Positions 2,731-25,391 of a stretch of DNA of 64,000 nucleotides are shown here, piece after piece (position 1 is the stretch's first letter; every line of letters begins with the position of its first letter). The notes under the pieces were generated by a model. The model did no database searches and was not told the DNA's origin. It saw only the letters and a program-made list of their open reading frames with translations. The position numbers were made by a program, and so were the translations under genes. This stretch comes from Acidobacteriota bacterium (GTDB taxonomy: Bacteria > Acidobacteriota > Vicinamibacteria > Vicinamibacterales > UBA8438), in the NCBI GenBank assembly GCA_009861545.1, contig VXME01000091.1, positions 1 to 64,000 of the forward strand, written 5' to 3'.

Positions 2731-3288
2731 ATGGGCAAGATCGAAGACCTGGCGGCCGTCTACGAGCGACATGTGAGCGTGCCTTGGCAACGCAGCGTGT
2801 CCGGCGCGCAACGGGTGATGCTGGTGGTCTACGACAAGGAGCTCGAACGCACGCTGAGAGACCGAATCGGTGAATTCGAGCAGGCGACGCGCCGTAGCGA
2901 GCACGACTGGACGCTCGTCGACTGCACGCGTTGGTTCGCCGAGTGGATGGCGCAGGACGAGTACCGCGAAGCCTGGTTCGAAGATCCGGATCTGCTCGGA
3001 ATGAAGCTGCAAGGCGAGTTTCGCGAAGCGGTCGCCAGCAGGCTGCGAACCCGACTCGAGGCGGCCGGCGACAACACTGTCGTCGCGTTGCTGGGCGTGG
3101 CCTCCCTCTACGGCTTTCTGCGCGTTTCGGAGGTGATTCGTTCGGTGGAGCAGACGATTCACGGACGATTGGTGGTGTTCTTTCCGGGCACCAAGAACGA
3201 GAGCAACTATCGGCTGCTCGATGCCCGCGACGGCTGGAACTACCTGGCCCAGGGGATCACGCTGCACGATGGAGGACCGGCGTTGTGA
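2731..3288 (+). CDS. brxB: BrxB, DUF1788 family BREX protein
   Basis: This is the second core protein of type 1 BREX, of unknown biochemical role but needed for defence in model systems. The 185 residues match DUF1788: an N-terminal helix (IEDLAAVYERHVSVPWQ), the central VALLGVASLYGFLRVSEVI segment and the conserved C-terminal LVVFFPGTKNESNYRLLDA followed by RDGWNYLA. It starts at ATG 2731, three nt after brxA stops, and its TGA overlaps the GTG start of brxC by 4 nt, so the three genes are probably translationally coupled. Confidence 0.88.
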   Translation: MGKIEDLAAVYERHVSVPWQRSVSGAQRVMLVVYDKELERTLRDRIGEFEQATRRSEHDWTLVDCTRWFAEWMAQDEYREAWFEDPDLLGMKLQGEFREAVASRLRTRLEAAGDNTVVALLGVASLYGFLRVSEVIRSVEQTIHGRLVVFFPGTKNESNYRLLDARDGWNYLAQGITLHDGGPAL

Positions 3289-6200
3289 AGATTCACGAGG
3301 TGCTCGATCGCGACCCGCGCACCACACGGCTCGCCAACAACGGGCAGGCGCGGATCGTCGACGTCGCCGACGCCCCGGCTCTCGAGGAACTGCGTGCGGA
3401 GCTCGAGACGTTCGTTTGCGACGGGCAGTTCGGCGACGCTCTCCAGCGCATTCTCGACCGTTATCTGGCGAACCTCGGGACCCCGAAGCAGGACTCGGCC
3501 TGGGTCAGCGGTTTCTTCGGCAGCGGCAAGTCGCACCTCCTGAAAATGCTCACCCACCTGTGGGTGAACACCCCGTTCCCGGATGGGACGACCGCGCGCA
3601 GTCTCGTTCGCGGCGGTTTGCCCGATGAAGTGCAGGCGCAGCTTCGCGAGCTGGACACCCACGCGCACCGGGCCGGGCGGTCTCCCGTGGCCGCAGCGGG
3701 AACACTGCTCGGCGGCAGCGTCGATCACGTCCGTCACAGCGTGCTGTCCATTCTGCTCCGCGCCCGCGGCCTGCCCGCGCTGTATCCCCTGGCGCGCTTC
3801 TGTTTCTGGTTGCGCGAGCAGGGACTGCTCGACGGCGTTCGCGCGGCGGTCGAGGCAGCCGGGAAGGACTGGCTGCGCGAGCTCAACAACCTCTACGTAA
3901 GTCCCGTCATTGCCGACGCCATCGTTGCCGCGGATGCCGGCTTCGCAGCGGACGGCAAGGCGGCGCGGCAGCTTCTGACGCGGCAGTTCCCGCCGTTGAG
4001 GACCGACATCTCGACCGAGCAGTTCATCGAGGCCGCCCGGCTCGCCCTGTCGGAGAACGGCGAGCTGCCGCACACCGTGCTCGTGCTGGACGAGGTGCAG
4101 CAGTACATCAACGAGGCCCAGGATCGCTCGGCCGCCCTCACGGAAGTGGCCGAGGCGGTGCAGACCCAGTTCTACAGCCGGGTCATGCTGGTGGGCGCCG
4201 GACAGTCGGCGCTCTCGGCCGGCACCCCGGCGCTGATGTGGCTCCGCGACCGCTTCCGGATCGCCGTGGAGCTCACCGATGCCGACGTCGAGGCGGTGAC
4301 CCGCAAGGTGCTGCTCCACAAGCGGCCGAGCGCCGGCCCGGCGATCGAGGAGATGTTCGAGCGGCACGCGGGCGAGGTTGCTCGCCACCTGCAGGGCACC
4401 CGGGTGGGGTCGCGGCCCGAGGATACGCATATCCGGGTAGCCGACTATCCGCTGCTCTGCACCCGCCGGCGTTTCTGGGAGGCGTGCTTCCAGGCGGCCG
4501 ATGCCGCCGGAAGCCACAGTCAGCTCCGATCGCAATTGCGCATTCTGCACGACTCGCTCGAGAACGTGGCCCATCGCTCGCTGGGCGCCGCGATTCCGGC
4601 GAGCGATCTGTTCAGCGCGCTGGCGCCGAGCCTGGTAAGCACGGGGGTGCTGCCCAACGAGCTCAACACCCGGATCCAGAAGCTCGACGAGGGCAGCAGC
4701 AACGGGGGACCGCTTCAGCGAGACCTCTGCGGCCTCGTCTTTTTGATCGGAAAGCTGCCGCGGCAGGAGGGTACGGATCTTGGGGTGCGTGCCAATGCGG
4801 GCACGTTGGCCGACCTTGTCATCGACGATATCACCACCGACTCCGGTACCCGACGCCACGAAATCGCCCATACGCTCGAGTTGCTGGTTAAAGACGGCGT
4901 ACTGATGAAGGTCGGCGAAGAGTATCGACTGCAGACGACCGAAGGCGCCGAGTGGGACCGCGCCTTCCGCGAGCGCCGGCAGGCGCTGACCGAAGTCGAG
5001 ATCGCCACCCGCCGTGATCAACTCTTCGCCCACGCCGTCCTGGAGGTGCTCGGCGGAATCAAGCCGGTGCAGGGGCAGGCCAAACTGCGCCGCAAATTGG
5101 CGATGCATACCGGTACCGAGCCGCCGCCCGCGAATGGCGAGGTCGTCAGTATCTGGCTGCGCGACGGCTGGTCGTGCGGCCGGAACGATGTGGAGAACGA
5201 GGCGCGCCGGCTTGGCGCCGACGACCCGACGCTGCACGTTCATCTTCCGAAAAAGAGCGCCGACCTGCTCAGGGGCCACATCCTCGACGTCGAAGCGGCT
5301 CGGCAGGTGCTCGATCACTACGGTGTTCCGGCCTCGCCTGAAGGGCGGGAGGCCCGCGAGAGCATGGAGAGCCGTCGCGCCGGCGCTGCCCAGGACCGGG
5401 ACGCGATCGTCAGCGACGTGCTGCGCGCGGCGACGGTTCTTCAGGGCGGCGGCTCCGAGGTATTCGGGGAAGGCTTGGGCGAGAAGCTCAGGACGGGCGC
5501 CGACGCGTCCCTCGCGCGTCTCTTTCCGAGGTTCGACGACGGTGATCATCGCGGGTGGGAGTCGGCGGTCACGCGCGCCAGGCAGGGCTCGGACCAGCCG
5601 CTCAAGGTAGTCGGCTGGGATGGGGCGACCGACGGCCACCCGGTCGCCAAGGAGGTGCTCGGCACGGTCGGCGCCGGCGCCCGGGGCACCGCGCTCCACA
5701 AGCTGCTCAAGGCCGCCCCCTACGGCTGGCCGCAGGACGCCGTCGACGCCGTGCTCATCGCGCTGCATCGCGCCGGGCATCTGCGCGCGACCCGAAACGG
5801 ACAGCCGGTGGCCGCGGGCGCTCTCGATCAGGCCGGCATCAAGGCGGCGGAGTTCCGTCCGGAGAAGGTTCGCCTGACCACCGGTCAGCGGATTGCGTTG
5901 CGGGGGCTGTTCGGGAAGCTAGGAGTCAACACGAAGAGCGGAGAGGAAGAGAACCGTGCGCCCGAATTCCTCGGCGCACTCGGTGTGCTCGCAGGACGCG
6001 CGGGCGGACCGGCGCCGCTGCCGCCCGCTCCGGATACGACGGTCATCGAGGACATGAAGCGGTTGGCCGGTCCCGAGCAGCTCGCGGCGATTCACGCGCG
6101 GAAGGGCGAGCTGGAGCGGCGGATCGAGGACTGGAACACGCTCGCCGAGCGCGCCGAGGTCAGGATGCCGGGCTGGAAGCTGGCGCTTGCGTTTCGTCGC

Positions 6201-6794
6201 CAGGCGGATGGGCTGCCGGTCGCCGCGAGTGTCGGCGCGGACATCGACGCCATCGCTGCGCACCGCTCGTTGTTGACGGGGAACGACCCGGTCGGGCCGA
6301 TCGTCGCCACGTTGGCCGCCGCTCTGCGCGAAGCACTCGTCGGGAAGCACAAGGACCTCACCGGGGCGATTGAGACCGCCGGCGCAGCGCTCGCCGGCGA
6401 TGCGACCTGGTTGGGGCTCGACACGACGGCACAGGCCGAGATCCGCCGCCGTCTCGGTCTCGACGCGCCGCCGCCGCTCAACGTCGCGACGGACCGTGAT
6501 CTGCTGCGCACGCTCGACGCCCGATCGCTCGCGGCGTGGCGGTCCGAAATCGACGCGGTGGATACCCGGGTCGGGCGGGCCCTGCAGGAAGCAGCCGAGC
6601 GGATCGATGCGAGCACGCCGCCCGGTGGCACGGATGCGACGGGCGATACGAATCCGCCGACGCCGCCCCGCACGACGACCATCCACGTACGCCGAGGTAC
6701 GCTGCCGGACGAACCGGCGGTGCGGGAATGGTTGCGGGAGCAGGAACAGAGATTGAACGATGCTGTTCGTCACGGGCCGGTAATCGTGCGCTGA
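3285..6794 (+). CDS. brxC: BrxC, large P-loop ATPase of BREX
   Basis: BrxC is the large AAA+-like ATPase of BREX and is thought to act with BrxB, PglX and PglZ on incoming DNA. The protein has 1169 residues, close to the usual 1200. A Walker A motif (GFFGSGKS) lies near residues 76-83 and a Walker B motif (VLVLDEVQQYI) near 265-275. The opening MKIHEVLDRDPRTTRLANNG is the characteristic BrxC N-terminus, which fixes the GTG at 3285 as start. That GTG overlaps the brxB stop by 4 nt. The frame stays open further upstream, but that part lies over brxB and is not BrxC-like. The C-terminal third is helical and low in recognisable motifs. Confidence 0.92.
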   Translation: MKIHEVLDRDPRTTRLANNGQARIVDVADAPALEELRAELETFVCDGQFGDALQRILDRYLANLGTPKQDSAWVSGFFGSGKSHLLKMLTHLWVNTPFPDGTTARSLVRGGLPDEVQAQLRELDTHAHRAGRSPVAAAGTLLGGSVDHVRHSVLSILLRARGLPALYPLARFCFWLREQGLLDGVRAAVEAAGKDWLRELNNLYVSPVIADAIVAADAGFAADGKAARQLLTRQFPPLRTDISTEQFIEAARLALSENGELPHTVLVLDEVQQYINEAQDRSAALTEVAEAVQTQFYSRVMLVGAGQSALSAGTPALMWLRDRFRIAVELTDADVEAVTRKVLLHKRPSAGPAIEEMFERHAGEVARHLQGTRVGSRPEDTHIRVADYPLLCTRRRFWEACFQAADAAGSHSQLRSQLRILHDSLENVAHRSLGAAIPASDLFSALAPSLVSTGVLPNELNTRIQKLDEGSSNGGPLQRDLCGLVFLIGKLPRQEGTDLGVRANAGTLADLVIDDITTDSGTRRHEIAHTLELLVKDGVLMKVGEEYRLQTTEGAEWDRAFRERRQALTEVEIATRRDQLFAHAVLEVLGGIKPVQGQAKLRRKLAMHTGTEPPPANGEVVSIWLRDGWSCGRNDVENEARRLGADDPTLHVHLPKKSADLLRGHILDVEAARQVLDHYGVPASPEGREARESMESRRAGAAQDRDAIVSDVLRAATVLQGGGSEVFGEGLGEKLRTGADASLARLFPRFDDGDHRGWESAVTRARQGSDQPLKVVGWDGATDGHPVAKEVLGTVGAGARGTALHKLLKAAPYGWPQDAVDAVLIALHRAGHLRATRNGQPVAAGALDQAGIKAAEFRPEKVRLTTGQRIALRGLFGKLGVNTKSGEEENRAPEFLGALGVLAGRAGGPAPLPPAPDTTVIEDMKRLAGPEQLAAIHARKGELERRIEDWNTLAERAEVRMPGWKLALAFRRQADGLPVAASVGADIDAIAAHRSLLTGNDPVGPIVATLAAALREALVGKHKDLTGAIETAGAALAGDATWLGLDTTAQAEIRRRLGLDAPPPLNVATDRDLLRTLDARSLAAWRSEIDAVDTRVGRALQEAAERIDASTPPGGTDATGDTNPPTPPRTTTIHVRRGTLPDEPAVREWLREQEQRLNDAVRHGPVIVR

Positions 6795-6822
6795 CGCTGC
6801 TGGGTGGAAACGAGGGCGGCAC

Positions 6823-7932
6823 ATGCTTGGCACTCTCCAACTGGAAAAGTTCCGTGGGTTCGAGACGTACGCGTTGACCGATCTCACGCGCGTGAATCTG
6901 CTCGTCGGCAAGAACAACTGCGGCAAGACGTCGATTCTCGAGGCGATCCATTTTCTGGTTTCAGGAGGGGATCCGTTCGTTCTCACGGGGACAGCGAATC
7001 GGCGCGGTGAAGTGAGCGACACGGGCGCCACAGCGCGAGGATGGCGACCCGATGTCTCCCACTTCTTCTTCGGCCATCGTCTCGAGCCGGGGGCGGCCTT
7101 TCGTCTTCTTGGCGACGGCTACGAGCCGGTTTCAGTTGAGGTTCGCCTTGCTGAGGCCGCCGACGACTACGGGTCTCGATACGGCGATGACGATTCGGAG
7201 CGCGCCTTCCCGCTCGTTCTTCAGTTGGAGCGAAACGCGCAAAAGAGTGTTCTTCCGCTCAGGGAAAACGGATCCCTGATCGAGTCCCGAATTCGATTTC
7301 GATCGCCGCGACGGACTCTTGCCGGTCCGTTACCGCGAAGGCCCGAGGACCTGACGCCGCCGTTCGAATTCGTCACTCCGGACTCGCTCGATCCGGATCG
7401 CATGCGAACCATCTGGGACAGGGTCCTGACCGAAGATCGGGAATCGGAGGTCATCGATGCCGTGAAGCTCCTGGACGGCGACCTGAAGTCCATTCGCTTC
7501 CTGACGAGCGATGCTTCGCGGGCGCGGTCGGACCGGGCAGGCGTGTTGCTCGGTTTCGAGGGGGGCGGCCCGCGTGTGCCCCTGGGGAGCTACGGCGATG
7601 GGATGCGGCGGCTTCTTGCGCTTGCCCTTGCGTTCGTACAAACCGCAGGCGGCGTACTGCTGGTCGACGAGATCGACACGGGGCTGCATTGGACGGTGAT
7701 GGAAGACATGTGGCGACTGGTCGTCGATACCGCGCGCAAGTCGTCGGTGCAAGTGTTCGCGACGACGCACAGCTACGACTGTATCCGCGGGCTCTCGTCA
7801 CTCGTTGAATCCCATCCGGATCTCGCCGGCGACGTTTCCATCCACAAGATAGGGCGGTCCATCCGCAAGGCGGTGCACCTCGACGCGGACGATATTCGGG
7901 TGGCTGTCGAGCAGAACATCGAGATGCGTTGA
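6823..7932 (+). CDS. AAA15/OLD-type ATPase, PARIS AriA-like
   Basis: This 369-residue ABC-type ATPase of the AAA15/AAA21 group is a class that often acts as the sensor half of two-gene defence systems. Visible are LEKFRGFE at the N-terminus, Walker A GKNNCGKTS near residues 29-37, a signature-like SYGDGMRRLLALALA, Walker B VLLVDEIDTGLHW near 280-290 and an H-loop FATTHSYDC. The stop codon overlaps the ATG of the next gene by one nt (TGATG), so the pair is coupled. The layout (ATPase then OLD-like TOPRIM protein) resembles PARIS AriA-AriB, but the partner belongs to DUF3226 rather than DUF4435. It sits inside the BREX operon between brxC and pglX. Confidence 0.82.
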   Translation: MLGTLQLEKFRGFETYALTDLTRVNLLVGKNNCGKTSILEAIHFLVSGGDPFVLTGTANRRGEVSDTGATARGWRPDVSHFFFGHRLEPGAAFRLLGDGYEPVSVEVRLAEAADDYGSRYGDDDSERAFPLVLQLERNAQKSVLPLRENGSLIESRIRFRSPRRTLAGPLPRRPEDLTPPFEFVTPDSLDPDRMRTIWDRVLTEDRESEVIDAVKLLDGDLKSIRFLTSDASRARSDRAGVLLGFEGGGPRVPLGSYGDGMRRLLALALAFVQTAGGVLLVDEIDTGLHWTVMEDMWRLVVDTARKSSVQVFATTHSYDCIRGLSSLVESHPDLAGDVSIHKIGRSIRKAVHLDADDIRVAVEQNIEMR

Positions 7933-8651
7933 TGGCGACCGAAACCGCGCGATCCGTCCTTCGTGTGGAGGGGTCCGATGACCTGCATGCGCTCGTGCAC
8001 CTGCTCCGCCACCATGGCATCGATCATGACCGGTGGGCCTGGTTTCCTTCGATCGTGACTGCCGGCGAGGGCGCGGACGCCCCGGGGGACGGCAGGATCG
8101 CGCTCCTGCGGGGCGTTCGGACGGCGGTAAGGCTGAGCGAGGGCAAGGCCGTCGGCTTCGTACTGGATGCGGACGATTCCGTCGAGAATACGTGGCGGGC
8201 GATTTCCGACCGCCTCGAGAGAGCCGGGGTGGTACCGCCGCCGGCCATTCCCGTGGAAGGCTTCGTCGGGGAATCCGCCGAGTACAACACCAGGGTCGGC
8301 GTATGGCTGATGCCGGACAATCAACAGGAAGGGGTGCGGGGAGAGGGAACGCTCGAGCGCTTTCTTGAAGCTCTCGTTCGGGGGGAGGACCCCTTGCTTC
8401 CATATGCTCGGCAAGCCACAACGCAGGCGAAAGCAGTTCATGGAGCGGGCTATCCGGACGGCGACGTCAGGAAGGCGATGCTGCATGCGTGGCTGGCCTG
8501 GCAGGAGGAGCCGGGGCTGCCGTACGGCACGGCGATCCGGGCCCGGTACTTTCGTCACGACAATCCGGCAGCCGAGCAATTCGTTGCCTGGTTTCGTCGC
8601 GTGTTCGAGGGGGGTTTCGCGCTCGCTGCCGAGGATGCTCGCCATGCTTGA
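7932..8651 (+). CDS. DUF3226-type TOPRIM protein, partner of the upstream ATPase
   Basis: This 239-residue protein has the two acidic TOPRIM motifs of OLD-like nucleases: the glutamate in LRVEGSDDLHAL near residue 13 and a DxD in VGFVLDADDS near residue 80. It matches DUF3226 in length and motif layout. By analogy with PARIS AriB and OLD TOPRIM domains it is probably a metal-dependent nuclease held or delivered by the adjacent ATPase; no activity can be shown from sequence. ATG at 7932 overlaps the ATPase stop by one nt. The 3' end overlaps the next gene by 8 nt. Confidence 0.78.
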   Translation: MATETARSVLRVEGSDDLHALVHLLRHHGIDHDRWAWFPSIVTAGEGADAPGDGRIALLRGVRTAVRLSEGKAVGFVLDADDSVENTWRAISDRLERAGVVPPPAIPVEGFVGESAEYNTRVGVWLMPDNQQEGVRGEGTLERFLEALVRGEDPLLPYARQATTQAKAVHGAGYPDGDVRKAMLHAWLAWQEEPGLPYGTAIRARYFRHDNPAAEQFVAWFRRVFEGGFALAAEDARHA

Positions 8652-9936
8652 CTCGCCTGCAGCACTGCTACGGAGCATCGGGCTCGGAGAGGGCGCGCAT
8701 CTCGAGCTGAAGGAGGTCGTGTTCGCCGGAGAGCGGGTCAAGGGACCTGGGCGCGAGCAGCTCGCCGACGAACTCGCGGCGTTCGCCAACGGTCACGGCG
8801 GCGTGCTTGTGCTCGGCGTCGATGACCGTACGCGGGACATCGTGGGCATTGCGCTGGAGCGGCTCGACGCCGCCGAACAGTACGTGACCGCGATTGTCGA
8901 CGATTCGATCAAGCCGCCGATCTATCCCTTGATCGAACGGCTTGAGCTGCTGGATTCGGAGGGCGTGGCGCGACCGGTCCTGCGCGTCGAGGTCTCGCCG
9001 AGCCTGTTCGTGCACGAGAGCCCCGGCGGGTTTCTGCATCGCGTCGGCAGCGCGAAGCGGAGGATGGAGCCCGACTTCCTGGTCCGTCTCCATCAGCAGC
9101 GCAGCCAGTCCCGGCTGATCCGGTTCGACGAACAGCCGCTTCACGATGCGTCATTCGCCGATCTCGATCGCGCGCTGATCGACCGTTTTGCGGTCGACGG
9201 CATGGGCGACGACAGGGAGACCCTGGCGTGCAAGCTCGGCATGGCCGCAAGGTCAAGCGCGCGCGGTCCCCTCCCCACCGTCACGGGGATTCTGCTGGGG
9301 ACCACGGAGCCGATCGAGCGGCTGCCGCATGCCTATGTGCAGGCGGTGGCGTACCGCGGGCGCAGTGTGCCCGAGTCGCTGGAGTCCCCCTGGTACCAGC
9401 TCGATGCCGCCGACATTTCGGGGCCGGTCGACCGGCAGATCGCCGGGGCCTGTCTGTTCGTCGCCCGCAACCAGAAGGTGCGTGCAAGAAAGACGATGGG
9501 GCGTATCGACCTGCCGCAGTACGATATGGCGGCGGTGTTCGAAGCCGTCGTCAATGCGGTAGCGCACCGCGACTATGCCATGCACGGCGCGCACATCCGC
9601 CTGCACCTGTATTCGGACCGCGTCGAATTGTCCTCGCCCGGCGCGCTTCCGAACAGCATGACGGTGGATGATCTTCCATACCGGCAAACGAGCCGCAACG
9701 AAACCCTCACGGGCCTGCTCGCGAGGTGTCCCATCCCGACGGGGATTCCAGGGCTGGAGACACCGAGGCAGACGCTGATGGACCGCCGCGGCAATGGGGT
9801 TCGGGTCATTCTGGAGAACAGCGAGAAGTTGTCGGGGAAGCGGCCCGTCTACGAGACCTTCGGCGACGAGTTGCGGTTGACGATCTACGCCGCCGACCCG
9901 GCCGCCGGAGGGGCGGCAGAGTTGCCGCCGGAGTGA
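8644..9936 (+). CDS. AlbA_2 (Schlafen-like) plus GHKL ATPase protein, copy 1
   Basis: The N-terminal third is an AlbA_2/Schlafen-AlbA domain (HLELKEVVFAG, then LADELAAFANGHGGVLVLGV), which in relatives binds or cuts nucleic acid. The C-terminal half has a HATPase_c_4 (GHKL) fold with the N-box EAVVNAVAHRDYAMHG near residues 300-315. Such proteins are often annotated as RecG-like helicases or transcriptional regulators. Two in-frame ATGs (8635 and 8644) overlap the preceding TOPRIM gene; I chose 8644. A clear paralog lies at 24059-25324 behind another ABC-type ATPase gene. Here it forms a coupled trio with the ATPase and the TOPRIM protein. Confidence 0.8.
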   Translation: MLDSPAALLRSIGLGEGAHLELKEVVFAGERVKGPGREQLADELAAFANGHGGVLVLGVDDRTRDIVGIALERLDAAEQYVTAIVDDSIKPPIYPLIERLELLDSEGVARPVLRVEVSPSLFVHESPGGFLHRVGSAKRRMEPDFLVRLHQQRSQSRLIRFDEQPLHDASFADLDRALIDRFAVDGMGDDRETLACKLGMAARSSARGPLPTVTGILLGTTEPIERLPHAYVQAVAYRGRSVPESLESPWYQLDAADISGPVDRQIAGACLFVARNQKVRARKTMGRIDLPQYDMAAVFEAVVNAVAHRDYAMHGAHIRLHLYSDRVELSSPGALPNSMTVDDLPYRQTSRNETLTGLLARCPIPTGIPGLETPRQTLMDRRGNGVRVILENSEKLSGKRPVYETFGDELRLTIYAADPAAGGAAELPPE

Positions 9937-9942
9937 GCGAGA

Positions 9943-12900
9943 GTGGAACCGCTATCCGTTGACCTCCGAAACCGGCTCGCCTCGACCATCAAGGCCGCGC
10001 GGCGCGCGGGCGAATCCGGCGCCCGCAACGCGCTCGGCATGCTCGCGGTCGGCGACGCCCGCGCGCACCCATCGATGTCTTCGGCGGAGCAGGACCTGCG
10101 GCGCCGCCTGCGGGCGCACGGGCGTCAACTCGGGGACGGGCGCGATGCCGAAACCGGCGAGCAGAAGATCGACCGCCTCGCCCACGAGGTGGCCTACGAG
10201 CACTGGCACCGGATGCTGTTCGCCCGCTTCCTGGCGGAGAACGAGCTCCTCATCGAACAGGAATCGGGCGTCGCCGTGTCGCTGGCGGACTGCGAGGAGC
10301 TGGCGCGCGAGCAGGGGCAGGATCGCTGGACGCTGGCCGGCCGCTTCGCCGAGTCGATGCTGCCGCGGATCTTCCGGAGCGACGATCCGGCGCTCGCCGT
10401 CAGGCTGGCGCCGGAGACGCGGCAGGAGCTGGAGCGGTTGGTCGAGGCGCTGCCGGCCGAGGTCTTCACCGCGCGCGACGCCCTGGGCTGGACCTATCAG
10501 TTCTGGCAGGCGGAGCGGAAGGACGCGGTCAACAAGAGCGGCGTGAAGATCGGCGCCGACGAGCTGCCCGCCGTGACGCAGCTCACCGAGCGCTACATGG
10601 TGCTGTTCCTGCTGCACAACACCGTCGGCGCGTGGCGTGCGGTCCGGATCCTGGCCGCGCAACCGGAACGCGCCGCGACCGCCGCGAGCGAGGAGGAGTT
10701 GCGGCGGGCCGTGCGCCTGGAAGCGGACGGGGGCTACGACTTCTCGTATCTGCGATTCGTGCGTGAGCCGCGGGACGGCGACGACGCGGAGCAACCGACG
10801 GGGCCCTGGCGGCCGGCGGCCGGGCGCTTCGAGGGCTGGCCCCGCACGGCGGCCGACCTCCGCGTGTTCGATCCCTGCTGCGGCAGCGGCCACTTCCTGA
10901 TCGAATGCCTCGATCTGCTGGTCCGCCTGCGCATGGAGAAGGAACGGCTCGCACCGGGCGCCGCGATCGACGCCGTGTTGCGGGACAACCTGTCCGGTCT
11001 GGAGATCGATCCGCGCTGCACGCAGATCGCCGCCTTCAACCTGGCGTTGACCGCGTGGACCTGGCCCGATGCGGGCGGCTATCGGCGCCTGCCGGACCTG
11101 AATCTCACCTGTTCCGGATTGGCGCCCAACGCCCCTCGCGACGAGTGGACCCGGTTGTCGGATGATGCGGCCGACGCCGGAGGACTTCCCTCGAAGCGCG
11201 ACCTGTTCGGCGTCGAGGACACGCTGATGTCCGCGCCGCTCCGCAACAGCCTCGGCGCGCTGCACGACCTCTTCGCCCAAGCGCCGGTGCTCGGCTCGCT
11301 CATCGACCCGCGCGCCGTTGAGGCGGATCTCTACCAGCACGACTACGAGGCGGTGCGGGGGTTGCTCGGCGTTCTGCTGGAACGGGAACGTGGCAGCGAC
11401 GAGCGGACCGAGCGCGCCGTGGCGGCCCAGGGTATGGCGCGCGCCGCGGAACTGCTGGCCGGCCGCTATCACCTGGTCATCACCAACGAGCCCTACCTTG
11501 CCCGCCGCAAGCAGAGCGACGAACTGAAGCAGTTCGCCCAGGACCGGCACTCGGCCGCGAAGGGTGATCTGGCCACGCTGTTCGTCTCGCGCATCTTCGG
11601 TTGGCTCGACAAGCATGGCGTCCACGCGGTGGTGACGCCGCAGAACTGGCTGTCCCAGACGAGCTACAAGAAGCTCCGGGAGATGCTGCTGAAGCAGCGG
11701 ACGTGGAACCTGGTCGCGCGGCTGGGGCCGGGCGCGTTCGAGACGATTGGCGGGCATGTGGTGAACGTCGCGTTGAGCGTGCTCTCCACGGACCGGTCGA
11801 GACCGGACTCGCGAATGGCGGGCATCGACGTTTCCGGTACCCGGGACCAGAAGTCAGTCCGGGCGGATGAGAAGGCAGTGCTTCTCCGCGGAAGAACGCA
11901 CGGTGCTGACGTGGGCCACGCATCGAACGGAGCGGTCCACGTGCTTGGGCAACGTAGGCAGCTCGACAATCCGGATTCAATACTCCTGTTCAACAGCGGC
12001 GCCAGCAGTGAACACCTCTCCAGAGTTGCCTTGGCATACCAGGGAAAGAAGTACCCGAACGGTCTTCCCGAACCGTACTCCGATGATCCGACGCAGTGGA
12101 TCTTTCACGGCCACCCGTGCGGAGGTATCGCGTGGGACGAGGACGCCAAGCGGATAGTTCACGGGCCACGGCGAATCGATACGACCGTTCTTCAAGTCGC
12201 GGTCGCGCGGCTGCTGGGGTACCGCTGGCCCGCCGAGCAGGATCCCGAGCTTCGGTTGGCGGCTGAAGTACGGGAATGCGTAGCGCAGTGCAGGAACCTT
12301 GCCGAGTTCGCCGACGCCGACGGCATCGTCTGTCTGCCTCCGGTTGGCGGCGAGTTCGCAGCGGCTGACCGTCTGCGCCAACTGCTCGTCGCCGCGTACG
12401 GCACCGATTGGACCGCGGAGACCGAACGGCGACACCTGGTCGCAGCGGCCGGAAGATCCGAGCCTGTCGATTCCATCGAAGCGTGGCTGCGCGACCGCTT
12501 CTTCGAGGAACACTGCCAGCACTTTCTTCAGCGTCCCTTCGTCTGGCACATCTGGGACGGCCGCCGCGACGGTTTCCATGCATTGCTCAACTACCACCGC
12601 CTCGCGGGTTCAGACGGCGTGGGCCGCCGCACGCTCGAAGCGTTGACGTACAGCCATCTTGGAGATTGGATGGCGCGTCAGAAAGCGGACCGAGACCAGG
12701 GACTTGATGGAGCGGATGGGCGACTTGCGGCTGCACAGGACCTTCAGCACCAGCTCAAGAAGATCATCGCTGGCGAGCCTCCGTGCGACGTCTTCGTCCG
12801 CTGGAAGCCTCTTGGCGAACAGCCGATCGGTTGGGAGCCGGACATCAACGACGGTATTCGGATCAACATCCGCCCGTTCATGTCGGCGGATCTGTCGAGG

Positions 12901-13161
12901 CGAGGCCGGGTCGGCGCTGGCATCCTGCGCGTCAAGCCGAAGATCAAGTGGTCCAAGGACCGGGGGCAGGAGCCAAGAAACTTGCGCTCGCAAGACGAGT
13001 ACCCGTGGTTCTGGGGCTGCCCTGGCGACCGCACCCAGACCGAGCGTACCGATTTCCGCGGCGGCGCGGATTTCGATGGCAAGCGCTGGAACGATCTGCA
13101 CTATACGAATGCCGTCAAGCGGGCCGCACGGTCGCGAAGTACGGTCGAGGCGGGCTCATGA
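9943..13161 (+). CDS. pglX: PglX/BrxX, BREX adenine-specific DNA methyltransferase
   Basis: PglX is the site-specific N6-adenine methyltransferase that marks host DNA in BREX and gives the system its target specificity. It has 1072 residues. Motif I (FDPCCGSGHFLIECLDLL) lies near residues 309-326. Motif IV, normally NPPY, reads NEPY (LVITNEPYLARRK) near residue 515. The C-terminal part (about 690-1072) should be the specificity and BREX-contact region. The start is GTG at 9943, 6 nt after the AlbA/GHKL gene. The stop overlaps the next gene (ATGA). The last ~56 codons have a diverged second copy at 21070-21258. Confidence 0.92.
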   Translation: MEPLSVDLRNRLASTIKAARRAGESGARNALGMLAVGDARAHPSMSSAEQDLRRRLRAHGRQLGDGRDAETGEQKIDRLAHEVAYEHWHRMLFARFLAENELLIEQESGVAVSLADCEELAREQGQDRWTLAGRFAESMLPRIFRSDDPALAVRLAPETRQELERLVEALPAEVFTARDALGWTYQFWQAERKDAVNKSGVKIGADELPAVTQLTERYMVLFLLHNTVGAWRAVRILAAQPERAATAASEEELRRAVRLEADGGYDFSYLRFVREPRDGDDAEQPTGPWRPAAGRFEGWPRTAADLRVFDPCCGSGHFLIECLDLLVRLRMEKERLAPGAAIDAVLRDNLSGLEIDPRCTQIAAFNLALTAWTWPDAGGYRRLPDLNLTCSGLAPNAPRDEWTRLSDDAADAGGLPSKRDLFGVEDTLMSAPLRNSLGALHDLFAQAPVLGSLIDPRAVEADLYQHDYEAVRGLLGVLLERERGSDERTERAVAAQGMARAAELLAGRYHLVITNEPYLARRKQSDELKQFAQDRHSAAKGDLATLFVSRIFGWLDKHGVHAVVTPQNWLSQTSYKKLREMLLKQRTWNLVARLGPGAFETIGGHVVNVALSVLSTDRSRPDSRMAGIDVSGTRDQKSVRADEKAVLLRGRTHGADVGHASNGAVHVLGQRRQLDNPDSILLFNSGASSEHLSRVALAYQGKKYPNGLPEPYSDDPTQWIFHGHPCGGIAWDEDAKRIVHGPRRIDTTVLQVAVARLLGYRWPAEQDPELRLAAEVRECVAQCRNLAEFADADGIVCLPPVGGEFAAADRLRQLLVAAYGTDWTAETERRHLVAAAGRSEPVDSIEAWLRDRFFEEHCQHFLQRPFVWHIWDGRRDGFHALLNYHRLAGSDGVGRRTLEALTYSHLGDWMARQKADRDQGLDGADGRLAAAQDLQHQLKKIIAGEPPCDVFVRWKPLGEQPIGWEPDINDGIRINIRPFMSADLSRRGRVGAGILRVKPKIKWSKDRGQEPRNLRSQDEYPWFWGCPGDRTQTERTDFRGGADFDGKRWNDLHYTNAVKRAARSRSTVEAGS

Positions 13162-14909
13162 CGGGTGCGTTGCTGTCGAGGCAGTGTGGGCGACAGCGTC
13201 CCGCGGCGCCTGAGGCCAACAGGACACAGGCGCAATTTCCGGTCGTCCCGCCGGCTAAGGCCGGGGGGGCGTTTTTGGCGTTCGCGGCAGGAGACGCGTT
13301 GGGCTGGCCGCAGGAGATTCCGCGCAACGTGCGGAGCAGTGCACACGGCGCGTCGCCGCGGATGGAGTTTCAGACGTGGACCCGGCGGACCGGCGGCCGG
13401 TTCCGCCCCTACGAAGAGACCATCGGAGCGGGAGAGTACAGCGACGACACACAACTCACGCTTGCCGTGGCGCGCAGTAGGACGAATCACAGCGCCGACT
13501 GGTGGAAGGCGTTCATGCGGGTGGAGCTGCCGCGCTGGACGATCTACGAACGCGGCGGTGGCGGCGCGACGAAGCGGGCGGCACAGGCTTGGCTCGCCGG
13601 CAGCCCGCCGTGGCAGTCCGGCAAGATGGATGCTGTCCGCCGGTATTTCGATGCCGGTGGCAACGGGGTGGCCATGCGCGTGCTTCCGCACGCCCTGTTT
13701 CTCGCGGGCCAGGACGACTCGGCGGTCTTGGTGCATGACGTCGTACGTGACGGGGCGGCAACGCACGGGCATCCACGCGCGCTGGTCGGCGCAACCGCCT
13801 GCGCGTACGCGGCATGGTCGCTGGCGCGCCGGCACCGGACGCTCGGCTTCGGAGAACTGCTGGATCTGCTGATTGATGAACACAGCGGATGGGGCGCGTT
13901 TCCCGACATGGAGCGCGGCGGCGAGGCTTGGTCCGCCGCCGCGGCTCGGGTGCTCGACGAACCCTACGAGCGTCTCTGGCAGCGCACCGTCGACGAAATG
14001 CGGCAATTGCTGGAACAGGCCCGCAACGGAATCCGGGCGGGTGCCCTGGCCGACGATCGCGCGGTGCTCGACGACCTCGGATGCTTCGGACGCTTCAAGG
14101 GGGCAGGCACAGTCACTGCTGCTGCTGCTGCGTATCTCGCGGCGAGACATGCCGCGCAGCCTGCCCAGGGCGTACTCCGGGCGGCCTTCGAGCGCGGCAC
14201 CGACACGGATACGCTCGCGGCAATGACCGGGGGGCTCCTCGGGTGTCTCGCTGGCGACGAGTGGTTGCCGGCGCCCTGGCGTGATGTGCAGGACGCTGCC
14301 TACTTGCGTCGCATCGCCGGTCAGGTGGCCCTGGGACCGTCCGGTGCCGAACAGCGGCCGGTGGAGACGCCAGCGGCCACGCAGTCGATCCTGACTGACC
14401 TCGCCCGAAACGGGGATCATGAAGTGGCTTTGGGAGAATCGACACGCGTCCAGGCGACGGCGCTACCGGATCTCAAACCGCTCTCGAATTCGATCACTGT
14501 GCACGCGTGGCGGCTCCGAACGCCCGAAGGGCAAACCCTGTACGTCACCAGAGTCGAGGAAAACAGGCGGTCACGCCGCGCCGGCCCGCCAAAGGCCGAG
14601 CCGTCTTCGGTTCGGCGGCCGTCTTCGGATCCTGCGACTTCCAAGTCCGACCCAGCAACACCCGCGGTCTCGGATTCCGGAGCCGACGTGGCGGTCGATC
14701 AAGGTGATGCGCTCTACGCCGAATTCCAACGGCAACTGCGGACACTGTTGAGCAACGGACCGGCGAGGCCCAAGAGAATCGAAGAGGCGCTGGGACTCAT
14801 TCCCCTCCAAGTTCGCAAGTGGCTGGAACGAATGGAGCATGGCGGGGAAATCGAACGCGCTTCCAGGAATCCGGTGACGTACGCCCTGACGCGGAAGACG
14901 CTGCTGTGA
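13158..14909 (+). CDS. ADP-ribosylglycohydrolase with C-terminal winged helix
   Basis: This is an ARH/DraG-family enzyme of 583 residues, expected to remove ADP-ribose from a modified protein or nucleic acid. Family motifs are present in order: AFAAGDALGWPQE near 42-54, the metal-binding SDDT near 95-98, GNGVAMRVLPHAL, THGHPRALVGA, and the second metal site RGTDTDTLAAMTGG near 346-358. After residue ~400 comes a low-complexity linker and then a C-terminal winged-helix-like domain (PARPKRIEEALGL, QVRKWLERMEHGGEIERA), which is not part of standard ARH enzymes. ATG at 13158 overlaps the pglX stop; the TGA overlaps the next ATG by one nt. No ADP-ribosyltransferase gene is visible in the window, so the substrate is unknown. 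Confidence 0.85.
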   Translation: MTGALLSRQCGRQRPAAPEANRTQAQFPVVPPAKAGGAFLAFAAGDALGWPQEIPRNVRSSAHGASPRMEFQTWTRRTGGRFRPYEETIGAGEYSDDTQLTLAVARSRTNHSADWWKAFMRVELPRWTIYERGGGGATKRAAQAWLAGSPPWQSGKMDAVRRYFDAGGNGVAMRVLPHALFLAGQDDSAVLVHDVVRDGAATHGHPRALVGATACAYAAWSLARRHRTLGFGELLDLLIDEHSGWGAFPDMERGGEAWSAAAARVLDEPYERLWQRTVDEMRQLLEQARNGIRAGALADDRAVLDDLGCFGRFKGAGTVTAAAAAYLAARHAAQPAQGVLRAAFERGTDTDTLAAMTGGLLGCLAGDEWLPAPWRDVQDAAYLRRIAGQVALGPSGAEQRPVETPAATQSILTDLARNGDHEVALGESTRVQATALPDLKPLSNSITVHAWRLRTPEGQTLYVTRVEENRRSRRAGPPKAEPSSVRRPSSDPATSKSDPATPAVSDSGADVAVDQGDALYAEFQRQLRTLLSNGPARPKRIEEALGLIPLQVRKWLERMEHGGEIERASRNPVTYALTRKTLL

Positions 14910-17900
14910 TGACCACGTTGGCTCCATCGCACTTGGAGGCTCTGAAGTCCTTCCTGCTTGAGTTGCGCGCTACTGGCGACGACGGCTTTGAAGGCCTGAT
15001 GGCGAGCGTTCTGACAAGTATCACCGGAATATCGTTCAGACTGGCGGCCAGCGGATCGCAATTCGGCAGTGACGGAACTGCCGTCAGAGAGGAAGATGGT
15101 GTCTCCTTCGAGTGCAAGCGCTACAAAGACAAGATTCCGAGAAGTAAGATCCTGTCGAAAATCGCTGAACTCTCGCTGAGTACAGCAAGTGTCGATGCCT
15201 GGGTTCTCTGCGCTACCTCGAAAGTATCGGCTCAGATAGCCTGCGACGTACGAAAACATGGTCGGGAGTTCGGAATCGGTACGATTGTGCTGGATTGGGC
15301 AGGCGTTCTTCCCAGGTTGGCTGTCGCGGTCGCGATGTCGACGGACGCCACGCGACAAGCTCTCGGTGCTGACGCTTCGGTTTCGGCGGCCGTCCAGGCG
15401 GTCCGGGCAACCAGTGATTTCAATGCATGCGCCGAGGAACTTCGTCTCGACCTCCGGGAACCGCTGGTCGGAACAGAGGTCGCACGGCAAGCGAACGCCG
15501 CTTGGCTGACGGCGGCTCTCGCCAGCCGAGAGCAGGCGATACTCGCCTTCGGCGAGCCATTGTCGCCGCTCGATGAGGCACATGGCACCGCACGCCTGCG
15601 AGCGGATCTGGTCGCAAGGGTCCAGCCGTTCATGACCGGCGATGCGGCCGGCACAATCCTGTGCGTGCTCGGTGGAGAGGGAGCGGGAAAGTCCTGGTTG
15701 GTTGCACATTGCTGGTCTCGCGTCGACCGAAGGCCGTTGATGGTCGTACTGCGTCCCAGGGACTGCCAGGAAGTCGTCGGGCCCGACGACTGCGAAAGTC
15801 TGCTCGCTTCCGAACTCCCCGCACAGGCCGGCGGCCCTGTGAACGACGGCGTCGTATCGGGTTGGCGCCGGAAGCTGGCCCGTTGGCGCAACGGTCGTCG
15901 TCCCGACCGTCCTCGCCTGATCGTCGTCATCGATGGTGTGAACCAGCGTCCGCAGGTCGACTGGGCTCGGGTCATCGACGCGTTCGGCGACGCGCTGAAC
16001 CGACTCGGCGGTCGGCTCATCATAACGGTTCGCACGACCTACTACGAGGCCAGACTCCAACCTCGTTTGGTGGCGCCGGTCGAAGAGTTGAGCGTTCCGG
16101 AGTGGACCGCAACTGAACGCGACGAGATCCTCGCCGCGAATGGAATCGACCATACCGTTCTTCACCGCGGCCAGGACGCTCACGCAGCGGTTGGACGTTC
16201 ACTTCTCAATCCGCGCCTGCTCGGAATAGCCGTCCGCCTTCTGAAGGTAAAGACTGTAGAACATATCGACGAGTTGAGCGTGAATCACCTGCTGTTCGAA
16301 CACCTCCGAACCCGCGAGCAGGAAAGTCGCAATCCGGAGCCGGCGCACGAGTGCGTGCGTCGTCTTCGAACCCATGCCGAAGCGGTTCTGCGCCGACACC
16401 AGAAGGGCCTGAGCGATGACGTCACTGTCTTCGATGCTGAGGATGTACAGAGTGTAGCGGACGGAAGATATTTCGTTCCGGTGGACGGAGATCCGACGCG
16501 CTACGCGCTGCACGACGACGGTTTGGTACTCGCATTCGGTCTAGTCGTGCTCGATCGGTTACGCATCGCATTGAGGAACGATCGAGATCTCGCGGCCGAA
16601 CTGGATGCAGCTATCGATCCCATCGCCGCTCTTGACCAGACGGCAGCCGCACTGATGGGGGCGCTTACGTACGCGTGCATCGACGACGAACAGCCCGACG
16701 AAATCGTGGTCGCGCTTCTGCGCGCCTTCGCGGAGCTCCAGAATCCGAACCACGAGGATCTGGAGGCATTCAAGTCGCTTGCCCGCACGAGGTCACCGGC
16801 GTTCCTGGAAGCTGCGCGCCGTCTGTGCTTGGCGGGATGGAACCAGCCAAATGTCGATTGGATCGAAGCGGCTTTGGTGTCTTCCAAGGCGCACGACGAT
16901 GTGCTGCGGAACATCCAGATCGCTGTCGCGGGGTGGCTGCGATGTTTTTCGCTGGAACCCAGCGTGGGCGTCCGCGGGGGAGTGAGCGCCGAAGAGAGAG
17001 CCAAGGGAACGGAGAAAATCAACGACGACCTGCGGTCCTTGTCGAGCGCAGAACGACAACTGCTGGAAGGCATGGAGGAGACAGTCGGTGATATCGAGGC
17101 TCTCACTCGACTGGCATTCACCCTCATGTCGGGCGGGCCGATCGCACCATTCGCGAAAGGCATTGTTCAGTGGTGTCTTGCGCACATGCTCAACCAGAAG
17201 GGATGGCCCTACGACGTACTCGGATACGTCGTCAGGCTCAACCGCGTCGACTGGAGGGCTGCGCGCGCGGGGTTGTTGAAGGAAGGCGCCATCTTCCGTA
17301 GAACCGACGTATCCCGACCCGGATCCTGGGCTCTGATCGTGCTGCTGGAGGCGACCGGAGAACCCGGCGACGCGAGGGAGGCGGAGGAGCTGAGGGCCAA
17401 AGTCAGCGACTTCGAACCGCGGAGGGGTTGGAGACTCGTGGAGCAATACTGCTCGTCCGACCCCTGCGATCCGTCGGCGTCGAAGCCGATAGGCATAGCA
17501 GCTACGGCGGGCCGTTACGAGACGATAGACGTTTCGTCGCTCTACGGTGGCCCATACCGTACCGGAGAAGACCTTTTCTGCGAGATGGCCAGGCCGGGTG
17601 TCGTGCGGTTCGAAGCCGAAGTCGGAGTTAGCAAGTATCGGGAATTCGCCGAGGAGGTCTTGAAACGCCGAGGAGCTTCCTTGAAGCGGGGGTTGTTCTT
17701 CCTCCGGCCGCACAGTGCTCTTCTGACGAGGGAAATGGCGCTGAAATTGGCAGCGGAGTGCGAGAAGCGTCTCGGGGCGACTTCTGATGTGCCGGAGAGG
17801 GATCGATGGTGGATGGCGCAGGACCAGTTGCTTCTCGCGTTTCCGAAGCTGAGCGCGGAGGAACAGGTGAAGGCACTGTTGGGAACGACGGTCGGGAAGG

Positions 17901-19462
17901 ACGTCCTGCGGTCGCTGTTGGGCGTGATGAAGCCGTTGGATGAAACGGTTTTCGACCGCTACTTCGGCGGGGCATGCGACGAAAACAATCCCCGCAGCCA
18001 GTATTTCCTTCTAGTATTCGCGAAAGGCAGCGGTACGCTTGTTTCCCGGCGTTCCCGGGACTATATCGCGTTGCTGACGACCTCGCAGTCGGAGCTGGTC
18101 CGAATGGCCGCATTGGAGAGGAGCTTTCGCCTCCGGGACGAGAAGCTCATGAGACAGGTGGTTGATTCCGGGTGGCGCGCGGAGAGAGGAGAGGAGAGGA
18201 ATAGCTACGAGAATGCGTATGGCTCCGCGATTTTGGCGGAAGGGGTGGTGCGCGACTGGATCTCAGTCGATGAAGCATTGGATAAGATGTCTTCGCGACA
18301 CTACGGCTGGGCTGCAAGATGGCTTGGCTCGACCGCCGCACAAGAAGTTGCGCGACGGATTGACTTTTCTATAGGCGCTGCGCTCGGAGTGCAGGTGGAG
18401 AACACGCTGCCGGACGTAGAGTACCGGTGCCGGCAGGAAGGGCAGCCGAACTCGTTTCCGTACTGGGTAACAGAAAGGGAAGGACAATCGGATGTTGTTG
18501 CCGAAGCAATGAAGCGTCCACGGAGTGACGAGGCATTCGAAGAGCAGGAGAGGCGGCGGCACGAAGCATTCGAGACGTTCAGGAAGAAGGTGGATCAGGC
18601 GAATGCGGGGATCCTGCTCGACGACATCGCCAAGGAGGAATTCGAGGCGATTGTGGATGCAGCTCCAGACGTCGCGGATCGCTGGTACCGCTTGTTTTCG
18701 GGACTGAGTGAGTGTGGAAGGCAGCCTGTTCACAACCTGGTTCTGATGCTTGCGTACGCGTTGCGAGAACGATGCCCGAAGCGGGCCGTGGCGCTGCTCA
18801 GGGCGGTCTACGGGCAGGTTGGACCCATTCGGTTCACGGTCGGCCGCGCGAGAGTGCCGCTGGCGGCGGCGATTGCGTGGAGTGCGGCAGGGAGTGACGC
18901 TGGACGTGAGTGGTGCCATGAGCGGCTGAATCTGGCGAGGAATGATCATGAGCTCGCCGTGGAGGTGTTGGCTGCCTTGTCGAGTCGGGAGGAGGCGGCG
19001 TTGTCCGAATTCATTCGCGAGCGGCTGGACAGGGAAGAGCCGGAGGGCATCGCGAGGGCGCTGCTCGTGGCGGGATTCTCGAATCAGGAGGATCGGAACA
19101 AGGACGTGCTCTATCGCTACAGAGAAGCAAAGGGGTTCATTGGCGAGGCGTACAGGGCGGCGAAGCATGCACTTGATCGGGACGGATGGGCTCGGTACTG
19201 GTTCGAGGAGATGTGCAAGGCGGACCGCCCGACGGAGTTCTGGCGGTATTCCATACTGTTCACCAAGATTGTGGACGGCCGGTTCGCAACATGGCACTCC
19301 GAGTACACACGGCAAGAAGAACCGATGCGCCTGTTTTGGCCGAGCTTAGACGGGGAAGTGAACAGGCGGATAGAGAAGTGGCGCAAACACCGGGAAAAGA
19401 CGCTGTTCGGCGGGAAGAGGCCGGCGGACGTGTTTCTGCCTGTCGGGAAGAGGCCCAGGTGA
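14909..19462 (+). CDS. PD-(D/E)XK nuclease-STAND NTPase, Avs-like sensor
   Basis: A 1517-residue three-part protein. Residues 1-130 form a Mrr/PD-(D/E)XK-like nuclease: E28, D55 in QFGSDG, and E68-x-K70 in FECKRY. A P-loop NTPase follows, with Walker A LGGEGAGKSW near 254-263, Walker B LIVVIDGVNQ near 337-346 and a sensor-like GGRLIITVRTTYY. The remaining ~1000 residues are helical and without sharp repeats, as in the target-binding arms of STAND sensors. Effector plus STAND plus long helical sensor is the plan of antiviral Avs proteins, which cut DNA on binding a phage protein. The gene overlaps the ARH stop by one nt and looks lower in GC than pglX. I cannot assign it to a named Avs type. 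Confidence 0.8.
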   Translation: MTTLAPSHLEALKSFLLELRATGDDGFEGLMASVLTSITGISFRLAASGSQFGSDGTAVREEDGVSFECKRYKDKIPRSKILSKIAELSLSTASVDAWVLCATSKVSAQIACDVRKHGREFGIGTIVLDWAGVLPRLAVAVAMSTDATRQALGADASVSAAVQAVRATSDFNACAEELRLDLREPLVGTEVARQANAAWLTAALASREQAILAFGEPLSPLDEAHGTARLRADLVARVQPFMTGDAAGTILCVLGGEGAGKSWLVAHCWSRVDRRPLMVVLRPRDCQEVVGPDDCESLLASELPAQAGGPVNDGVVSGWRRKLARWRNGRRPDRPRLIVVIDGVNQRPQVDWARVIDAFGDALNRLGGRLIITVRTTYYEARLQPRLVAPVEELSVPEWTATERDEILAANGIDHTVLHRGQDAHAAVGRSLLNPRLLGIAVRLLKVKTVEHIDELSVNHLLFEHLRTREQESRNPEPAHECVRRLRTHAEAVLRRHQKGLSDDVTVFDAEDVQSVADGRYFVPVDGDPTRYALHDDGLVLAFGLVVLDRLRIALRNDRDLAAELDAAIDPIAALDQTAAALMGALTYACIDDEQPDEIVVALLRAFAELQNPNHEDLEAFKSLARTRSPAFLEAARRLCLAGWNQPNVDWIEAALVSSKAHDDVLRNIQIAVAGWLRCFSLEPSVGVRGGVSAEERAKGTEKINDDLRSLSSAERQLLEGMEETVGDIEALTRLAFTLMSGGPIAPFAKGIVQWCLAHMLNQKGWPYDVLGYVVRLNRVDWRAARAGLLKEGAIFRRTDVSRPGSWALIVLLEATGEPGDAREAEELRAKVSDFEPRRGWRLVEQYCSSDPCDPSASKPIGIAATAGRYETIDVSSLYGGPYRTGEDLFCEMARPGVVRFEAEVGVSKYREFAEEVLKRRGASLKRGLFFLRPHSALLTREMALKLAAECEKRLGATSDVPERDRWWMAQDQLLLAFPKLSAEEQVKALLGTTVGKDVLRSLLGVMKPLDETVFDRYFGGACDENNPRSQYFLLVFAKGSGTLVSRRSRDYIALLTTSQSELVRMAALERSFRLRDEKLMRQVVDSGWRAERGEERNSYENAYGSAILAEGVVRDWISVDEALDKMSSRHYGWAARWLGSTAAQEVARRIDFSIGAALGVQVENTLPDVEYRCRQEGQPNSFPYWVTEREGQSDVVAEAMKRPRSDEAFEEQERRRHEAFETFRKKVDQANAGILLDDIAKEEFEAIVDAAPDVADRWYRLFSGLSECGRQPVHNLVLMLAYALRERCPKRAVALLRAVYGQVGPIRFTVGRARVPLAAAIAWSAAGSDAGREWCHERLNLARNDHELAVEVLAALSSREEAALSEFIRERLDREEPEGIARALLVAGFSNQEDRNKDVLYRYREAKGFIGEAYRAAKHALDRDGWARYWFEEMCKADRPTEFWRYSILFTKIVDGRFATWHSEYTRQEEPMRLFWPSLDGEVNRRIEKWRKHREKTLFGGKRPADVFLPVGKRPR

Positions 19463-21070: not shown

Positions 21071-21258
21071 TGGCAGAGTACCCGTGGTTCTGGAGCTGTC
21101 CCGGCGTCGGCTTGCTGGCCGAGCGCACGGATTTTCTCGGCGGCCCCGAGTTCGACGGCAACCGCTGGAACGACCCGCACCATACGAACGCGGTGAAGCG
21201 GGCCGCACGGGCGCGCGAGGCGGTCGAGGCGGGCTGGAGGGAAGGCGATGGTCGATGA
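21070..21258 (+). CDS. Stand-alone PglX C-terminal segment (62 aa)
   Basis: This short reading frame is a second, diverged copy of the PglX C-terminus. EYPWFWSCPG, ERTDFLGG, EFDGNRWND and HTNAVKRAARAR line up with the last ~56 residues of the pglX product; about 38 of those 56 aligned residues are identical by eye. The ATG at 21070 overlaps the stop of the decayed OLD gene, and the 3' end overlaps the ATG of the PHP-SMC gene by 11 nt, so it lies within a coupled series. It may be a functional small subunit, or the 3' scar of a second pglX lost when cargo was inserted. I cannot tell which from sequence alone. Confidence 0.7.
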   Translation: MAEYPWFWSCPGVGLLAERTDFLGGPEFDGNRWNDPHHTNAVKRAARAREAVEAGWREGDGR

Positions 21259-24055: not shown

Positions 24056-24058
24056 TGC

Positions 24059-25324: not shown

Positions 25325-25391
25325 TGTCAGAGACCGACCCTGACGGGAAGTGCAGCAGCGCGGGCCGGCCACGGCGACGGAAGGACCGGAC

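Follow-up and report, generated by a model that had tools for sequence, protein, structure and literature searches.

A PDC-M38 ATPase-TOPRIM pair and a Schlafen-GHKL gene between brxC and pglX of a type I BREX operon from an Acidobacteriota bacterium

PDC-M38 is a candidate system of PADLOC-DB that consists of two adjacent genes, M38A and M38B, and is embedded in an immune system. The PDCs of PADLOC come from a guilt-by-embedding screen (PMC12988326); no published antiphage activity for PDC-M38 and no paper naming it was found in the literature searched. Here we describe a gene pair that is a member of this already catalogued candidate system, located in a stretch of 64,000 nucleotides from an Acidobacteriota bacterium (contig VXME01000091.1, positions 1 to 64,000), referred to below as the window. 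On the + strand, between brxC (end 6794) and pglX (start 9943) of a bacteriophage exclusion (BREX) operon, an ATPase gene, a gene for a TOPRIM protein and a gene for a Schlafen/AlbA_2 (SLFN/AlbA) protein follow one another. We assign a probability of about 0.68 to the reading that the slot between brxC and pglX of this type I BREX holds two distinct modules of backup defence, namely PDC-M38 and, behind it, a Schlafen-GHKL RNase derived from a Ppl cassette. The features of the slot are as follows.

6823-7932, + strand: M38A, OLD-type ABC ATPase, predicted sensor/regulator (AAA_21 6e-23; PDC-M38A 7e-66)
7932-8651, + strand: M38B, DUF3226 TOPRIM protein, predicted nuclease effector (PF11536 2e-49; PDC-M38B 8e-37)
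8644-9936, + strand: Schlafen/AlbA_2 + GHKL (HATPase_c_4) protein, predicted RNase, separate module (SLFN_AlbA_2 6e-15; HATPase_c_4 2e-19)
8631-9895, + strand: presumed inserted segment, DNA similar to the Ppl-AlbA cassette of genome G525 (L139 12363-13630; blastn)

The coordinates and overlaps of these genes, the DUF3226 type of the TOPRIM protein and their position inside BREX agree with a reading made earlier from the letters alone (the sequence-only reading). Codon scores are strongly coding for the genes of the locus, which makes chance open reading frames unlikely. The ratio of non-synonymous to synonymous substitutions (dN/dS) is 0.24-0.28 for the M38A/M38B pair and 0.17 for the SLFN/AlbA gene. 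A promoter scan of positions 6400-10200 found none, and an Rfam search of positions 1-33000 of the window gave no match.

Several described systems resemble the pair, and PDC-M38 is the one to which both proteins give their best, full-length matches; an 11-residue C-terminal tail on M38B is the sole difference found. With the nucleases of OLD classes 1-3 (OLD, GajA, retron-Eco8) the pair shares the combination of an ABC ATPase with a TOPRIM domain, and the ABC ATPase motifs and the TOPRIM E...DxD residues of the OLD-type superfamily are present; however, the pair consists of two separate genes and has no helicase or reverse transcriptase partner. M38A comprises 369 residues and matches the Pfam families AAA_21 (82.7 bits, cut-off 27) and AAA_15 (E=5e-19, 69.7 bits, cut-off 32.1). 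Its Walker A (G29-K35), signature (G258-D-G260), Walker B (D282-E283) and H-loop (H316) motifs are intact, and these residues are invariant or nearly so in 29 relatives. Among the PADLOC models PDC-M38A ranks first, followed by the AbiLi model PDLC02336, which is matched over its full length (1e-45), and by AriA (1e-26). For the AlphaFold2 model of M38A, with a mean predicted local distance difference test score (pLDDT) of 87, the top Foldseek matches are PtuA and the heads of Rad50/SMC, OLD appears at rank 22, and AriA is absent among the first 50 matches. Membership of the pair in AbiL, to which M38A is related by its AbiLi match, was rejected because a PADLOC search at E 0.01 found no AbiLii model for M38B.

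M38B comprises 239 residues, and its ATG lies within TGATG, where the last base of the M38A stop codon TGA opens the start codon, giving an overlap of 1 nt. In 36 relatives, E13 and D79 are invariant and D81 is either D or N. The best Foldseek match of the AlphaFold2 model (pLDDT 83.5) is the TOPRIM domain of OLD (6njw; probability 0.96, TM-score about 0.5, E 0.03), while a search of PDB sequences with the M38B profile returned chance matches only. The closest orthologues end at RRVFEGG*, whereas the tail of the window's protein runs on to a stop codon inside the SLFN/AlbA gene. A phage origin of M38B was rejected, as no relative was found among 50,697 phage records; on plasmids, relatives occur in three records only, with at most 31.5% identity.

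The sequence-only reading had called the pair PARIS-like. As far as the layout is concerned this holds: like PARIS (the phage anti-restriction-induced system, AriA/AriB), the pair combines an OLD-type ABC ATPase (AAA_15/AAA_21) with a separate TOPRIM protein, the two genes overlap, form an adjacent cassette or occasionally a fusion, and can sit in BREX. Membership in PARIS, however, was rejected. The TOPRIM protein of PARIS carries DUF4435, the defining domain of that system, whereas that of the window carries DUF3226; M38B has no Pfam match to DUF4435, and a genome-wide search for this family matched contig C83 only, outside the window. In a profile-profile comparison, M38B and DUF4435 reached a probability of 47%, covering the TOPRIM core alone. 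M38A is also shorter than AriA (369 versus 464 residues) and nearer to the AbiLi models, and both PDC-M38A and AbiLi outscore AriA. The protein on C83 (L186 1009-1854), encoded elsewhere in the same genome, has the AriB-type domain of true PARIS.

To gain an overview of how the pair is conserved, relatives of M38B were scanned in one genome per species, which gave 291 confirmed candidates, and the best 80 were examined. M38A lies directly upstream of M38B on the same strand in 79 of them, spread over many phyla, and the 80th is a single-gene fusion of the two in a metagenome-assembled genome of Planctomycetia (L045 7619-9343). The genes overlap by 1 nt in 41 and by 4 nt in 15 of the 79 adjacent pairs (56/79). 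M38A-M38B is a real and widespread two-gene unit. Two more pairs lie outside BREX in the genome of the window itself (L024 702-2473 and L025 7067-8620), one of them possibly degraded, with M38A on contig C84 split across two frames. In the closest BREX-borne relatives, which belong to the same family (G524/L034 and G537/L036), the pair directly follows brxC, in the same slot as in the window, and genome G523 has a remnant of M38A between brxC and pglX. Pairs are also found in Hma systems (SNF2 helicase, DUF1156 methylase, DUF499 ATPase), directly before the methylase in five loci (L028, L086, L091, L094, L111) and directly after the helicase in L109. In L028 the order is M38AB, the methylase, and then Ppl with a SLFN/AlbA gene; in this locus two modules that the window has in its BREX are thus found within a different methylation system.

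For the third gene, homologues place the start at ATG 8644; it ends at 9936, overlaps M38B by 8 nt (ATGCTTGA) and encodes 430 residues. Over the nuclease lobe, the family profile of this protein matches human SLFN14, SLFN12, SLFN5 and SLFN11 (SLFN14 with E 1.6e-8), and within the SLFN_AlbA_2 domain the residues E16/E21/D61 align to E206/E211/D249 of SLFN14, the catalytic positions of SLFN13/14. In the C-terminal half, the E/N, D-R-x-E and G-x-G residues conserved in GHKL-like domains are retained. From these motifs we infer that the protein is probably an RNase regulated by its GHKL-like domain; Schlafen RNases are characterised by cleavage of tRNA or rRNA. It resembles the BREX-linked Schlafen-minimal histidine kinase RNases (PMC12839542), which likewise combine SLFN/AlbA_2 with GHKL in BREX, and the E/E/D residues are retained here; it differs from them in that its gene adjoins M38B rather than Ppl, and that a Pfam scan of the C-terminus gave no clear match to a winged helix-turn-helix (wHTH).

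That the pair is extended by this gene, as the sequence-only reading had it, is not borne out by the neighbourhoods. A SLFN/AlbA gene follows M38AB in 0 of the 80 pairs, of which 72 are fully informative on a third gene because 8 loci end at most 1.3 kb past M38B; a conserved M38A-M38B-SLFN three-gene system was therefore rejected. The usual partner is Ppl, which is followed by a SLFN/AlbA gene in all seven Ppl loci of this class, the single class in which neighbours were counted (the window's second copy included), and in the Hma locus L028. The three genes are true neighbours in a local juxtaposition and form no conserved three-part system. Given this pairing, also present at 21248-25324 of the window, the view of Ppl as a single-gene system may not hold here. 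The genome of the window holds seven SLFN/AlbA genes with at least 35% identity to the first copy of the window, that copy counted, and on contig C160 an Hma system has a SLFN/AlbA gene between helicase and methylase (L023 5262-19859).

The origin of the third gene can be followed in the tree and in the DNA. The first SLFN/AlbA copy of the window is 55% identical to the second copy of the window and 79% identical to the copy behind Ppl in G525, to which it is sister with a support of 100/100. In blastn comparisons, the M38AB orthologues remain similar up to 8609-8616, the Ppl-SLFN junction of G525 is similar from 8631 to 9895, 13 nt of the ppl tail included, and orthology to the pglX region resumes at 9949; the borders of the third gene thereby coincide with the end of M38B and the start of pglX. 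These borders and the tree indicate an insertion of the SLFN gene from a Ppl cassette, with an in-frame fusion that preserved translational coupling. The insertion is read from them and not from the tail of M38B, whose ungapped similarity to the ppl tail of G525 is only slightly above random. The surroundings are far more conserved: compared with G537 of the same genus, brxB is 95%, brxC 86% and pglX about 85% identical over most of its length, and Ppl, the second SLFN gene and brxL are 95%, 96% and 96% identical, whereas M38A and M38B reach 55% and 65%, against 85-95% for the BREX backbone. In G537, M38B is followed by a HEC-01A ATPase, a DUF4276 protein, another gene and a SIR2 protein; a HEC-01A gene also follows M38B in G524, and G523 and G525 have a homologue of it in this slot. 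The third gene is mobile, and the brxC-pglX slot is a cassette hotspot in a stable BREX backbone.

How the two modules would act can be proposed by analogy to OLD-type systems. The ATPase M38A would restrain the putative TOPRIM nuclease M38B and release it once a phage-derived trigger is sensed; the freed M38B would then cut an essential nucleic acid, leading to growth arrest and an aborted infection. The second module would be the Schlafen-type RNase with its GHKL domain. Having entered downstream of M38B from a Ppl-Schlafen cassette, it would now share the operon with the first module and presumably act independently of it. Several observations weigh against this reading. D81 of M38B is N in 8 of the 36 relatives, and the Foldseek match of its model (E 0.03) is weak. 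For most of the 80 pairs, neither immediate neighbour is recognised as a defence gene, so that embedding is not their rule. Furthermore, co-transcription, the 8-nt overlap and the low dN/dS leave room for a cooperation that the third gene may have acquired.

This last point leads to the alternative that the three components form one true system, with the Schlafen-GHKL protein as a second effector or regulator under the control of M38A/M38B. The single operon, the overlap and the purifying selection are in its favour, but the survey of the 80 relatives, the pairing with Ppl and the other genes that occupy this position in orthologous BREX operons within the family make it very improbable. A somewhat unlikely but more serious alternative is that both modules are passenger cassettes that serve defence in general and are expressed together with the BREX operon without any functional link to it. 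In its favour, close relatives differ in the content of the slot although their BREX backbones are 85-95% identical, and M38 pairs stand alone in most genomes; on the other hand, repeated placement next to a methylase gene, seen in BREX as well as in Hma, exceeds what random integration would lead one to expect.

The same placement beside adenine methylases in two systems could also be read as guarding. A PARIS-like pair would then sense anti-restriction proteins such as Ocr, which disable BREX or PglX, and kill the cell. The ATPase-TOPRIM layout with its 1-nt overlap fits this idea, the adjoining methylases are targeted by such proteins, and guarding of BREX by embedded PARIS-like modules was proposed in January 2026 (PMC12839542). 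However, the pair lacks the defining domain of PARIS, a system that Ocr-like anti-restriction proteins trigger and that cleaves tRNA, and most M38 pairs stand outside such systems. In addition, neither Ocr nor its homologue Gp5 triggers PARIS in the BREX of Salmonella D23580, though both block that BREX (PMC11341690), and the discoverers of PARIS ruled out guarding of EcoKI, as PARIS works and senses Ocr in cells without type I restriction-modification or BREX (PMC9122126). The guard hypothesis is thus neither new nor favoured by its closest test, PARIS in the Salmonella BREX, and we regard it as unlikely. Still more doubtful is a variant in which the effectors of the slot are interchangeable and all read the state of the adenine-methylase machinery of BREX or Hma, so that M38AB and the newly translation-coupled Schlafen RNase would form a layered trigger that fires on inhibition of PglX or its complex and is distinct from PARIS.

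The two backup modules are surrounded by a type I BREX operon in which brxA, brxB, brxC, pglX, pglZ and brxL were all matched by PADLOC, NF033441 or BrxL_ATPase models. The gene order is brxA, brxB, brxC, the three-gene block, pglX, an ADP-ribosylglycohydrolase, a large, weakly Mrr-like protein, a HEC-04-like ATPase, Ppl, the second SLFN/AlbA protein, an AAA-ATPase_like/PDDEXK_9 protein, pglZ and brxL. The genes of the backbone and the Ppl cassette are located as follows.

1939-2727, + strand: brxA (PADLOC BrxA 3e-88)
2731-3288, + strand: brxB (PADLOC BrxB 1e-70)
3285-6794, + strand: brxC (NF033441 BREX_BrxC 4e-200)
9943-13161, + strand: pglX, N6-adenine methylase (PADLOC PglX E=0)
21248-24055, + strand: Ppl (PHP-SMC-like), usual partner of the SLFN/AlbA gene (PADLOC Ppl 3e-118)
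24059-25324, + strand: second SLFN/AlbA_2 + HATPase_c_4 protein, after Ppl (55% identical to the first copy)
27226-29580, + strand: pglZ (PADLOC PglZ 9e-267)
29577-31637, + strand: brxL (BrxL_ATPase 5e-125)

The ADP-ribosylglycohydrolase (13158-14909) overlaps pglX by 4 nt, has a weak C-terminal winged-helix match and a relative with 60% identity behind pglX in G525. It is followed by a protein of 1517 residues (14909-19462) with a weak N-terminal match to Mrr-like nucleases and, by eye, a P-loop NTPase and then repeats; it has no PADLOC match and looks like an Avs/STAND-type sensor within BREX. Between the Ppl cassette and pglZ lies the AAA-ATPase_like + PDDEXK_9 protein (25350-27170), whose counterpart in G537 is 92% identical. 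A direct repeat of 160 bp (12997-13156 and 21076-21235, 81%) flanks an 8-kb cassette, and through this repeat the HEC-04-like ATPase gene ends in a duplicate of the final ~53 codons of pglX. The same repeat in G537 encloses a different cassette, and in a family-level search HEC-04 relatives elsewhere in the family match to about residue 511 only, which indicates that the pglX-derived tail is absent there. The repeat could be either a recombination anchor or a decoy of the PglX tail.

The locus is a further, well-resolved example of BREX carrying backup effectors and allows the assembly of such sets to be seen from sequence, in that the ATPase-TOPRIM pair is stable while the gene behind it differs among relatives. 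It also corrects the three-component reading and points to the pairing of Ppl with Schlafen proteins instead. As the same two modules are reused in BREX and Hma, the direct sensing of the host system by the modules embedded in it becomes a directly testable question.

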